64,000 nucleotides of DNA. It comes from Flavisolibacter longurius (GTDB taxonomy: Bacteria; Bacteroidota; Bacteroidia; Chitinophagales; Chitinophagaceae). The position numbers were made by a program, and so were the translations under genes. Below, in pieces: positions 15,713 through 43,217 of the stretch (position 1 is the first letter of the stretch; the number at the start of each line of letters is the position of its first letter). The notes under the pieces were generated by a model. It was not told where the DNA came from and searched no databases. It worked only from the letters and a program-made list of their open reading frames with translations. Location: contig JACJGO010000011.1 in NCBI GenBank assembly GCA_014163555.1, positions 1-64,000 on the forward strand, given 5' to 3'.

Positions 15713-17830
15713 CTACTGCGCCAGCAATGCCTCCAGACTTTCCTGCACCTTGGTTGCATTGGGCAGCATGGCTGCTTCCAGCCCCATGTTCAGCGGTACA
15801 GCCGGAAGGTCCAGTGCTCCCAGAGCGTCAACCGGTAGATCCAGCCAGGGAAAGCAGGCTTTTGAAATGCGGCCGGCCAGGGCTTCGGCAAACGAATTGG
15901 TTTGCTGCTCTTCGGTCAGCACCAGGCATTTACCATGCTTTTTTACCGTGGCAAAAACCAGCTCTTCATCCAGTGGCGACAGGGTTCGCAGGTCAATAAT
16001 CTCAACCTGCCCCGGAAAGTTTTTGGCAGCGGCCTTGGCCCAGTACACACCCATGCCGTAGGTGATCACACAGGCCGACTCGCCACTGAATACGGCATCG
16101 TCACCAGCCTTCAGCACTACAGCGGCCTTGCCAAACGGAAGTATGTACTCACGGGATGGCTCAACCGTTTTTGCTTCTTCGGTTCCCTGCACTTTGCTCC
16201 AGTAAAGTCCTTTGTGCTCCAGCATCACCACCGGGTTGGGATCGTAAAAAGCGGCCTTCATCAGCCCCTTCATATCCGCTGCATTGCTGGGATAGGCGAT
16301 CTTGAGTCCTTTGATGCTCAGCAGGGTGGTTTCCACACTGCCGCTGTGATAGGGCCCGCCCCCATTGTAAGCACCGATGGGTACCCGAATGATGGTGGAA
16401 ACAGGAAACTTGCCACAGGAAAGGTAACAAGACTTGGAAATTTCCGTTACCAGTTGGTTGAACCCGGGATAGATATAATCAGCAAACTGCACTTCCACAA
16501 TCGGCTTTAACCCTACGGCACTCATGCCTACGGTTGAACCGATAATATAGGCTTCCTGGATAGCGGTATTATAAACGCGGTCATCGCCAAACTGCTCACC
16601 CAGGGTAGCGGCTTCGCGAAACACACCGCCTAATCTTTTGCCTACATCTTGCCCATACAACAAACATTCAGGATGATCTTCCATGATTTCGCGAATGGCA
16701 AACAGGGCCGCATCCACCATGATCACTTTGCTGGCACCGGAAGGCGAACGTTCGCCCCTTTCTTCCGTTACTGGTGTAGGTGCAAAAACATGGTGCGAAA
16801 CGGTGGCAGGATCCGGCTCCGGTGCTGCAACAGCTTTCTCAAATGCATTCCTGATGGCTTCCTCCACTTCAGCTTCCAACTGCCGGATGAAGTCTTCTCC
16901 AAAATCACTAACCACGTAATTTCTGAATTTTACATACGGATCGCTGTTGGCATGTTTGGTCAAGTCTTCTTCGGAGCGGTAAAACTCCTTGCGCACCCCG
17001 CTGGTATGGTGATTGAGCAGGCAAACCTTTGCATGCACCAGCCAGGATCGCCGGTGTTCCCGTACATCAGCAATCACCTTTTGCATCACCGCGTAGCTCT
17101 GGAAAAAATCGGTACCGTCAACCCGCACCTTGTTCAGGCCTTTGAAACCTTCAGCATATTCGTAAGCATCCATAGCCCGGCCTTCTTCCGCCGGTACACT
17201 GATGCCCCAGTCGTTGTCCTGTACCAGGTAAATGATCGGCAATTGCTTTAGCGCTGCAAACTGCAGGGCTTCCGAAACCTCGCCCTCGGTAACAGAGGCA
17301 TCGCCCAATGAGCAAATGACAACCGGCTTCTCTGTACTGCCGACTGCATACTGACTACTGCCTACTCTTTCCTTGTATTGTATGCCCTGTGCCACACCGG
17401 TAGTTGGAATGACCTGCATACCGGTGGCGCTGCTTTGATGGATAATTTTAGGTTTGTCTTCAGCAAGGGAAGCCGGGTGCGAATAATAACTCCGGCCACC
17501 GGTAAACGGATCGCCGGCCCTGGTCAGCAGTTGCAGCATCAGCTCATAAGGCGACCATCCCATACCCAGCAACATGCTTTCGTCGCGGTAATAGGGGCTT
17601 ACCCAGTCCTGCGGCTGCAGGTGAAAAGCGGTGGCCAGCTGAATGGCTTCATGTCCGCGGGAGGTTGAGTGAACGTATTTGGTAATTGGCCGGTTCGCTT
17701 CGTAGGTTTCCGCCATCACCTTCACGCTGTGCATCAGCCGGAACACTTTCAGTAAAAGATTCCTGTCGATCCCTCCTGTTCCGTTGAAGGTGAAGGTTTG
17801 TTCGTTGTTTTCCGTTCTTTCCGCAACCAT
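15713..17830 (-). CDS. fused 2-oxoacid dehydrogenase E1 (alpha + beta), branched-chain type
   Basis: A 705-residue fusion of the E1 alpha (about residues 20-350) and beta (about 368-705) subunits that are separate in most bacteria. E1 uses thiamine diphosphate to decarboxylate a 2-oxoacid and pass the acyl group to the lipoyl domain of E2. The ThDP motif is present: GDASVTEGE with Gly176-Asp177, and Asn206 in QDNDWG. The beta part shows EVQFADYIYPGFNQ and GGGPYHSGSVE. Closest in type to branched-chain (2-oxoisovalerate) or general ThDP E1 fusions of Bacteroidota; the substrate is not proven. No E2/E3 genes are adjacent. Residues about 156-167 (VGSSQYAVGSTE), just before the ThDP motif, are encoded by five heptamer repeat units and look like an inserted loop. 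Confidence 0.9.
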   Translation of the reverse strand: MVAERTENNEQTFTFNGTGGIDRNLLLKVFRLMHSVKVMAETYEANRPITKYVHSTSRGHEAIQLATAFHLQPQDWVSPYYRDESMLLGMGWSPYELMLQLLTRAGDPFTGGRSYYSHPASLAEDKPKIIHQSSATGMQVIPTTGVAQGIQYKERVGSSQYAVGSTEKPVVICSLGDASVTEGEVSEALQFAALKQLPIIYLVQDNDWGISVPAEEGRAMDAYEYAEGFKGLNKVRVDGTDFFQSYAVMQKVIADVREHRRSWLVHAKVCLLNHHTSGVRKEFYRSEEDLTKHANSDPYVKFRNYVVSDFGEDFIRQLEAEVEEAIRNAFEKAVAAPEPDPATVSHHVFAPTPVTEERGERSPSGASKVIMVDAALFAIREIMEDHPECLLYGQDVGKRLGGVFREAATLGEQFGDDRVYNTAIQEAYIIGSTVGMSAVGLKPIVEVQFADYIYPGFNQLVTEISKSCYLSCGKFPVSTIIRVPIGAYNGGGPYHSGSVETTLLSIKGLKIAYPSNAADMKGLMKAAFYDPNPVVMLEHKGLYWSKVQGTEEAKTVEPSREYILPFGKAAVVLKAGDDAVFSGESACVITYGMGVYWAKAAAKNFPGQVEIIDLRTLSPLDEELVFATVKKHGKCLVLTEEQQTNSFAEALAGRISKACFPWLDLPVDALGALDLPAVPLNMGLEAAMLPNATKVQESLEALLAQ
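17334..17368. repeat. tandem heptamer array CNACTGC inside the E1 coding sequence
   Basis: On the plus strand the units read GTACTGC, CGACTGC, ATACTGA, CTACTGC, CTACTCT, five units of exactly seven bases. The word is the same as in the intergenic array at 1067-1091. The array is read through in frame and encodes about 12 residues of the fused E1 protein. Confidence 0.8.
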
Positions 17831-20167: not shown

Positions 20168-20196
20168 TTTATGAGTGTTTGTTAATAAACGTCCAC

Positions 20197-20267
20197 GTGT
20201 TCACGTGTTCACGTGTTCACGAGTTAGTTCACCAACTTGTGAACTCGTGAACAAGTAAACTTGTAAA
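20197..20267. repeat. octamer repeat hairpin between prs and rplY
   Basis: Three exact copies of GTGTTCAC occupy 20197-20220. After a short junction, an inverted arm of four octamers (CTTGTGAA, CTCGTGAA, CAAGTAAA, CTTGTAAA) fills 20236-20267. GTTCACGAGTT at 20215-20225 pairs perfectly with AACTCGTGAAC at 20242-20252, so the region can fold into a large hairpin in RNA. Confidence 0.8.
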
Positions 20268-35080: not shown

Positions 35081-35095
35081 TTGGCGGTTGGCAAG

Positions 35096-35152
35096 TGACG
35101 GATGACAGTTTTTTTCTATCTTACTGTCATCAGTCATCTATCATCTGTCATC
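35096..35152. repeat. heptamer repeat hairpin between the OmpA gene and dprA
   Basis: TGTCATC, AGTCATC, TATCATC, TGTCATC occupy 35125-35152 with a 7-base period. An upstream inverted copy (TGACGGATGACAG, 35096-35108) pairs with CTGTCATCAGTCA (35124-35136) with one mismatch. The T-rich loop is 15 bases. Confidence 0.75.
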
Positions 35153-35160
35153 TAAACCAA

Positions 35161-36261
35161 ATGCATTCCGAACTGCTTTATCAACTGGCCCTGACCCTTG
35201 TTCCCAATATTGGTGATGTGCATGCGAAAACGCTTGTACAACATTTTGGCGATGCCACTTCTATCTTCAAAGCCAAACAAAGTTTACTCGAAAAAATAGA
35301 AGGCATTGGGGAAATAAGAGCGAAGGCTATTAAACAGTTTGATGAATACCACATCGCAGAAACGGAGCTGAAGTTTATCGAGAAGTACAAGATCCGGCCC
35401 ATCTTCCTGAACGATGAAGCTTATCCGGGGCGCCTGCTAAATTGCTATGATTCTCCCACGCTACTTTTCTACCGGGGCGAAGCTGATTTGAATGCGTCGA
35501 AGATGGTGGCGATTGTTGGTACCCGCAGCAATACAGATTACGGGAAAGCGTTTACAGAAAAATTGGTGCAAGACATGGCTTCGCAAGACATTACTGTTAT
35601 TAGCGGATTGGCCTTTGGCATTGATGCCATTGCCCACAAAGCAGCGTTGAAACACAGCGCACCCACAATAGGGGTCGTTGGACATGGATTGAATAAGATT
35701 TATCCCTCACAGCATGCCGGCCTGGCCAAAGAGATGATCGCGGCAGGGGGTGGATTGCTGACAGAGTTTTTTCATGATGTAAAGCCGGACAAACACAATT
35801 TTCCTCTGCGCAACCGGATTGTCGCCGGCATGAGCGATTGCACTATAGTGGTGGAAACTGCCGTCAAAGGCGGAAGTATGATCACTGCAAAACTGGCCGA
35901 CGGGTACAACCGGGATGTATTTGCCGTTCCCGGCAGAACGGTTGATAAAGCCAGTGCCGGCTGCAATCATCTTATCAAATACAACAAGGCCATTCTGCTG
36001 ACCGATGCGGATGAATTGCTGGATGTAATGGGTTGGCAGGAAAAGAAAGTGGCGCCGAAAAAGCAGCGGCAACTCTTCATTGAGATGACATTGGAAGAAG
36101 AAACCATTTATCAACTCCTGCAACAAAAAGAAACACTCCACATCGACGAGATTAACTGCTTCAGCAATTTTAGCAGCAGCACAGTTGCAGCCGCCATTCT
36201 CAACCTGGAGCTACAGGGCATTGTACAAAGCCAGCCGGGGAAAATGTATAAACTGGTTTAA
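35161..36261 (+). CDS. dprA: DNA processing protein DprA/Smf
   Basis: A 366-residue protein. It loads RecA on incoming single-stranded DNA during natural transformation. Domains: N-terminal helix-hairpin-helix (about 1-80, PNIGDVHAKTLVQHFG and EGIGEIRAKAIKQF), a DprA Rossmann core (about 85-290, with VAIVGTRSNTDYGK, SGLAFGIDAIAHKAAL and FPLRNRIVAGMSD), and a C-terminal winged helix (about 300-366). All are intact. The start ATG at 35161 follows the repeat array immediately. Confidence 0.94.
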   Translation: MHSELLYQLALTLVPNIGDVHAKTLVQHFGDATSIFKAKQSLLEKIEGIGEIRAKAIKQFDEYHIAETELKFIEKYKIRPIFLNDEAYPGRLLNCYDSPTLLFYRGEADLNASKMVAIVGTRSNTDYGKAFTEKLVQDMASQDITVISGLAFGIDAIAHKAALKHSAPTIGVVGHGLNKIYPSQHAGLAKEMIAAGGGLLTEFFHDVKPDKHNFPLRNRIVAGMSDCTIVVETAVKGGSMITAKLADGYNRDVFAVPGRTVDKASAGCNHLIKYNKAILLTDADELLDVMGWQEKKVAPKKQRQLFIEMTLEEETIYQLLQQKETLHIDEINCFSNFSSSTVAAAILNLELQGIVQSQPGKMYKLV

Positions 36262-43066: not shown

Positions 43067-43217
43067 CAAACGTTAAATGTGAGACGTGAAACTGTGAGTT
43101 CATTTTATCTACAATCAGTTTTACAATAGTTTGGCAGGAGCTTTCCACTTGTGAACATGTGAACCGTGAACTTATGAACTCTCTCCCGTTTCACGCCTGA
43201 CGTTTGACGTTTCACGT
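43066..43217. repeat. composite heptamer/octamer repeat region between the RRM and PAP2 genes
   Basis: Heptamers TCAAACG, TTAAATG, TGAGACG, TGAAACT start at 43066. Octamers TTGTGAAC, ATGTGAAC, a 7-base CGTGAAC and TTATGAAC fill 43150-43180. Heptamers TTCACGC, CTGACGT, TTGACGT, TTCACGT fill 43190-43217. The outer arms are mutually inverted (GTCAAACGT matches on opposite strands). Confidence 0.75.

Follow-up and report, generated by a model that had tools for sequence, protein, structure and literature searches.

The window, as we call the whole 64,000-nucleotide stretch of DNA analysed here, contains a gene for a fused alpha-beta 2-oxoacid dehydrogenase E1 (positions 15713–17830, minus strand, 705 aa, frame intact), in the interior of which lies a tandem heptamer array resembling one in a noncoding gap of the same window. 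This raises the question of how repeat DNA of an intergenic type comes to code part of a conserved enzyme, and whether it adds to the protein or replaces a part of it. The open reading frame (ORF) matches the Pfam families E1_dh, Transket_pyr and Transketolase_C, all above their cut-offs, and the best-scoring NCBIfam models fall below their curated cut-offs.

The array (17335–17366, minus strand, coding-strand unit about GGCAGTN) was identified by TRF with a period of 7, 4.6 copies, 76% matches and a score of 43. The first-pass annotation had described it as five CNACTGC heptamers; an array of about 4.6 copies is present, but in register it reads TACTGCC GACTGCA TACTGAC TACTGCC TACTCTT and only two units (viz. 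CGACTGC and CTACTGC) fit that word exactly, so that the array is degenerate. It codes residues 155–166 of the protein (RVGSSQYAVGST; codons at 17333–17368, minus strand), and the GD dipeptide at residues 176–177 (17300–17305, minus strand), which stands directly after the loop, ten residues on, and which we take to be the opening of the ThDP motif, agrees with the original reading of about 12 in-frame residues ahead of that motif. The loop is 7-periodic in comparison with dinucleotide shuffles (p = 0.002). The coding strand reads GGC AGT AGT CAG TAT GCA GTC GGC AGT, with the copies of the unit in differing frames. Since a 7-bp unit does not make up a whole number of codons, successive heptamers are read in different frames, and the periodicity therefore arises at the level of DNA, which excludes selection on the peptide as its cause; a peptide repeat, which requires a period divisible by three, is likewise ruled out.

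An AlphaFold model of this E1, built from a 50-row alignment (mean pLDDT 87.7, pTM 0.90), places the residues coded by the array in a loop between a helix (residues 136–156) and a strand (residues 171–176). The intervening coil (residues 157–170) is predicted to be surface-exposed, and residues 161–170 have the lowest local confidence in the model (mean pLDDT 68). Foldseek searches with the model retrieved E1 and transketolase-type enzymes. Among alignments to solved relatives, the top-scoring one to an alpha chain (1um9_A from Thermus) shows a run of 11 gap residues exactly on the loop; no gap at the loop is seen in the two printed alignments to human BCKDH.

Relatives were compared in a collection holding one genome per species, in which the window's genome is labelled G000. 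Matches to E1 were found in 147/147 genomes of the family at E<=0.001, with weak paralogues counted, and in 16 of the 18 genomes of the genus at E<=1e-150. Five of the 134 E1 rows (L019, L071, L076, L079 and L080), along with 3 of the 80 other loci (L329–L331), were not parsed. The loop between the flanking motifs is 27 residues long in 61/110 parsed relatives and 22 residues long in 34/110, and the loop of the window's E1, with 26 residues, is one below the commonest length. These two lengths together account for 95 of the 110 relatives, and the array therefore replaces loop sequence and adds none. The proposal that the loop tolerates insertion accordingly holds for the presence of foreign repeat DNA and fails for a net gain in length; the lineage-unique insertion that a comparison of relatives was expected to reveal is rejected, the window's loop being no longer than those of its relatives. 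The sequence of the loop varies freely across the family, and among the loops read no array-free relative carries the same residues, as expected if these residues are coded by the heptamer and are not conserved. All of the complete heptamer-bearing E1 loops that were parsed keep the reading frame. As separate observations, the E1 genes of two MAG-type genomes, G038 and G025 (L071 and L076), shift frame at or near the loop, through decay or assembly error, and in the E1 of G074 (L074) a similar insert stands twice in tandem within the loop, which totals 102 residues with the frame kept.

The phenomenon is wider than the first-pass annotation held, as it extends to further species, to further enzymes and to a second kind of element. 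Periodicity was assessed by comparing, for each period, a run score with that of dinucleotide shuffles (1000 for loops and 300 for controls) in 185 distinct E1 loops (186 less one below the test length) and in 1600 control segments drawn from those E1 genes. Period 7 was detected at p<=0.01 in 11/185 loops against 7/1600 control segments, and at p<=0.004 in 9/185 against 2/1600, and the remaining periods from 4 to 12 were each found in 0 to 5 of the 185 loops. The largest of these counts, for period 5 (5/185 loops against 5/1600 controls at p<=0.01), was dismissed when inspection showed all five to be unremarkable loops whose matches are short. The 7-periodic loops are those of G000, G159, G150, G155, G160, G126, G082, L263, L272, L273 and L305, and different 7-bp units fill this one loop in different species (viz. 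GGCAGTN in G000, GGCAATN in G159, GCAAYCA in G150 and GGTCCAT in G160, and also ATCAACC in L272 and AACRAAC in L263, with G126 and G082 likewise differing). When 126 whole E1 frames were scanned for period-7 arrays (the script missed 7 E1 rows), the arrays ending in the loop-bearing stretch amounted to 5/8 at a threshold of 8, 4/5 at 9 and 3/3 at 10.

On a 183-row tree constructed with the loop left out and three short rows omitted, the heptamer state (12 rows, counting G004 at p = 0.013) cannot be explained by fewer than 8 changes, gains and losses being counted together. A 36-row tree groups G159, G004, G150, G000 and G153 (SH-aLRT 95), with G000 and G153 as sisters (SH-aLRT 99). Within this near clade heptamers are found in G159, G150 and G000, the 37-residue loop of G004 is weakly 7-periodic at the p value given above, and G153 carries a palindromic element. 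The arrays of G000, G159, G150 and G155 coincide in position and size, and all four may go back to a single ancestor. The arrays of G000 and G159 show an identical difference at position 5 of the unit in all four copies, a pattern with a chance of 0.012 by simulation in a test that was chosen after seeing the data.

The element in the E1 loop of the sister species G153 is a palindrome of ~160 bp that stands in place of the heptamers; its insert is predicted to fold at -82.4 kcal/mol (z -3.3), with 0/200 shuffles as stable. The listed matches to the element number 48, spread over 7 of the 18 genus genomes and including 11 partial matches in the window's genome, and 8 of the 10 loci fetched, counting the E1 query, lie within long open frames (two lie outside). 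Besides E1 itself, Pfam domains were found in six of the palindrome-bearing frames, identifying a flavodoxin-FAD reductase, an FG-GAP protein, tryptophan 2,3-dioxygenase, the DNA polymerase III alpha chain and, in two species including that of the window, cobalamin-dependent methionine synthase; the eighth frame is NuoB-like, as named by eye. Seven loci (L335, L336, L337, L339, L340, L341 and L343) were noted as carrying the element in frame within unrelated enzymes. A tie between palindromic copies and heptamer arrays was considered and rejected, as no period-7 array (threshold 8) lies within 250 nt of a palindromic copy in the nine loci for which the match position was correct, L340 being left out of the count. 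Loops of 54–102 residues in G012, G074, G083, G129 and L281 begin, as judged by eye, with similar C-rich stretches.

Arrays of comparable type occur elsewhere in the window. The noncoding array described earlier was located at 1069–1092 (type ACTGCCN, like the heptamer of the E1 array; repeat search and TRF), between an ORF ending at 955 on the plus strand and an ORF at 1122–1772 on the minus strand, and is overlapped by a mechanically called ORF with a TTG start (1047–1481). The sequence ACTGCCNACTGCC occurs 14 times in the window with <=2 mismatches, a number reached by 0/100 shuffles (mean 4.92, largest 11). TRF also identified a CTGTCAT array (35124–35153) at or just upstream of the start of the ORF at 35095–36261, where a methionine (MHSELL...) comes after the array, and a gap (43070–43217) holding several short heptamer-type arrays (TGTGAAC, CGTTTCA). 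Octamer arrays of 4 copies each are also present, CCAATATC at 1870–1902 and CACGTGTT at 20194–20225, and period 8 ranks second in the noncoding DNA of the genus sample described next.

A census of 1.64 Mb sampled from 8 genomes of the genus (threshold 11, crude ORF calls) shows period 7 to be the dominant period among noncoding arrays, with many types of heptamer unit present side by side in one genome. With the stricter ORF caller, 0.26 Mb of noncoding DNA contained 50 period-7 arrays and 1.27 Mb of core coding DNA contained 5, while 18 lay at the edges of ORFs; the looser caller placed 56 arrays in noncoding DNA and 14 within ORFs, with 3 mixed, and the 200-kb sample of G004 contained no period-7 array at threshold 11. 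For 39 of the 56 intergenic arrays, one strand or both can be read through in every frame without a stop. Of the five ORF-core arrays, G161 contributes two, both within a TrmN-like gene; the E2 gene of G000, an RsmF-like gene of G149 and a doubtful ORF of 109 aa contain one each.

The TrmN-like loop and the E2 linker behave as the E1 loop does. The TrmN-like gene, whose best NCBIfam model is TrmN with a score under the cut-off, has a loop before its SAM-binding motif that is 7-periodic at p<=0.01 in 7/16 congeneric genomes, the window's genome included; as the gene was chosen because the G161 copy held an array, the fair count is 6/15 others. Control segments of the gene gave 1/166 at period 7, periods 4–6 and 8–11 gave 0/16 loops each, and the heptamer sequence differs among the genomes (L345–L359). 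Of the 11 E2 linkers that were parsed (from 15 loci, 4 being left out), those of G000, G153 and G150 are 7-periodic at p<=0.002, and the other 8 lack this period. In the window's genome the E2 gene (L183:12503-13882, plus strand) has an array of the CCAAACN type in the linker that follows the lipoyl domain, and the RsmF-like rRNA methyltransferase of G149, so named by Pfam (L249:17394-18899, minus strand), has a long GATCTCA array in the region of its N-terminal domain. Among units picked by eye from the E1, TrmN and E2 loops, with one from the gap at 1069, 13/13 are free of stops on the coding strand, and the other strand of the units from G150, L272 and G161 would contain a stop; the variant GGCAGTA has TAG in one frame, and the G000 unit tested was the TAG-free variant.

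The extent to which a loop unit matches the repertoire of its own genome is clear for G160, weak for G000 and absent for G161. Doublets of the G160 unit GGTCCAT number 12 in G160 against 1 in the 17 other genomes of the genus. Doublets of GGCAATT occur in 8/18 genomes (G153 6, G159 4, one of these being the E1 loop, G000 3 and five others 1–2), and those of GGCAGTN number 52 in G153 (mostly in two long arrays), 8 in G159, 6 in G150 and 5 in G000, where the reversed control gives 3; there are also genomes in which this control outnumbers the unit itself. GGTCAAT, the TrmN unit of G161, forms 4 doublets in G161, two of them in the TrmN gene itself; 94 doublet sites of this unit, in long and short arrays, were noted in G151, far above any other of the 18 genomes. 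A genome-specific unit as a general rule is therefore rejected, 1/4 units being clearly genome-specific, and GGTCCAT in G160 is the one demonstrated case of within-genome sharing.

We consider it probable that repeat-generating DNA processes, represented by the dispersed heptamers and the palindromic elements, keep rewriting surface loops that tolerate change, with reading frame and length acting as a filter. Degenerate tandem heptamers of many sequences, scattered through the intergenic DNA of the genus together with dispersed palindromes of ~160 bp, would have arisen in, or been copied into, the E1 loop in several lineages, and purifying selection would have spared those cases in which the frame stays open, the length change is a multiple of three and the E1 fold remains intact. 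Under such selection on frame, length and fold, the repeat-coded residues would be neutral filler, swapped or drifting with the turnover of the repeats, and the arrays could originate by slippage in place or by templating from other arrays. Several of the observations above weigh against this reading, namely the unexceptional length of the window's loop, the degeneracy of its array, the weak (G000) or absent (G161) match of unit and genome, the weak periodicity of the G004 loop together with the lack of arrays in the G004 sample, the period-5 count, the ungapped human BCKDH alignments and the possible common descent of four of the arrays. The view that the loop is simply hypervariable, and that its 7-bp pattern arose by chance and stood out because so many genes were available to choose from, agrees with the freedom of the loop to vary across the family, but the excess of period 7 over the control segments in both the E1 loops and the TrmN-like loops, the latter also at the fair count, makes it very improbable. 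We attach as little credence to a regulatory role in which the copy number of the array toggles E1. Repeats close to gene starts act in phase variation in other bacteria, and in-gene heptamer arrays are able to shift the frame; however, every complete heptamer-bearing E1 loop parsed stays in frame, the array of the window is short and degenerate, and it lies at residues 155–166 of 705 in a housekeeping enzyme.

The more serious competitor, which we judge to be a real though somewhat less than even prospect, is a purely local origin, in which polymerase slippage favouring 7-bp steps grows heptamers within a weakly constrained loop and nothing is transferred. It accords with the differences in unit between species, with the many unit types per genome and with the lead of period 7 among the sampled noncoding arrays, and a link between heptamers and polymerase slippage has been proposed in earlier work, according to excerpts of two later papers (PMC4679880; PMC4692102). 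The excess of GGTCCAT doublets in G160, which hints at sharing within a genome, and the position-5 difference common to G000 and G159, with the post hoc character stated above, stand against it, and a coding array can grow by 21-bp steps only, so that pure slippage would be slow inside a gene. At the other end lies a dedicated or semi-dedicated process of template switching or gene conversion between arrays, which would rewrite the loops of housekeeping enzymes with the current heptamer of the genome. We regard such a process as unlikely; if it is true, conserved proteins would keep drawing loop sequence from noncoding repeats.

Rewriting of loops by repeat DNA has partial precedents, which are compared here on the basis of excerpts of the sources cited. 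Direct repeats of TAACTGA are described from Beggiatoaceae, cyanobacteria and five Bacteroidetes as one fixed unit located mostly just upstream of start codons, with insertion inside ORFs thought to succeed mainly at protein ends, and some intergenic regions of Bacteroidetes carry other heptamers as well (PMC4679880). The arrays studied here resemble them as short heptamer arrays, mostly intergenic and partly within ORFs, but differ, as far as the excerpts describe that system, in having many lineage-specific units, interior loops of conserved enzymes and a site shared across species; the units of the window and of the loops are not TAACTGA, and the E1 array lies well inside its gene. Heptamers are the commonest long simple repeats (Mrazek 2007, as cited in PMC4692102), and the present arrays, as tandem 7-bp units dispersed at many, chiefly noncoding places, belong with the short tandemly repeated heptamers (STRR, or long simple sequence repeats). 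The heptameric repeats of Xanthomonas and Nostoc are likewise degenerate, dispersed through the genome and largely intergenic; their units are of a fixed type, form G-quadruplexes and are depleted on the coding strand, and a recurrent enzyme loop, unlike here, is not reported for them in the excerpts of that source (PMC4692102). In the P6b loop of the Nostoc tRNA-Leu(UAA) intron, two classes of repeat motif have been independently replaced across lineages (PMC4476775), which resembles the exchange of repeat classes in one structural loop seen here, although P6b is an RNA loop of an intron and the E1 loop is protein-coding. Rickettsia palindromic elements are inserted in frame into unrelated genes including DnaE2, and two Xanthomonas species carry REPs within recB at much the same site (PMC10969869; PMC3733652). 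These resemble the G153 element and not the heptamers, and the likeness to the Rickettsia elements is one of features: they are long palindromes (about 100–150 bp), as is the G153 element, which likewise lies in frame within unrelated genes. Going by these excerpts, heptamers between genes and within some ORFs, palindromes inserted in frame, and an RNA loop whose repeat classes were repeatedly replaced are already known; a search of the open PubMed Central literature, subscription papers lying outside it, found no case of an interior enzyme loop occupied by different heptamers.

Because period 7 cannot be reached by selection at the peptide level, the loops described in this work record the birth of repeats at the DNA level within conserved enzymes. 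A single loop filled by differing heptamers and by one palindrome constitutes a natural experiment on the entry of noncoding repeats into proteins, which bears also on which loops tolerate repeats and on whether arrays are copied between sites, and E1, the TrmN-like enzyme and the E2 linker are usable as markers of repeat entry in strain collections.
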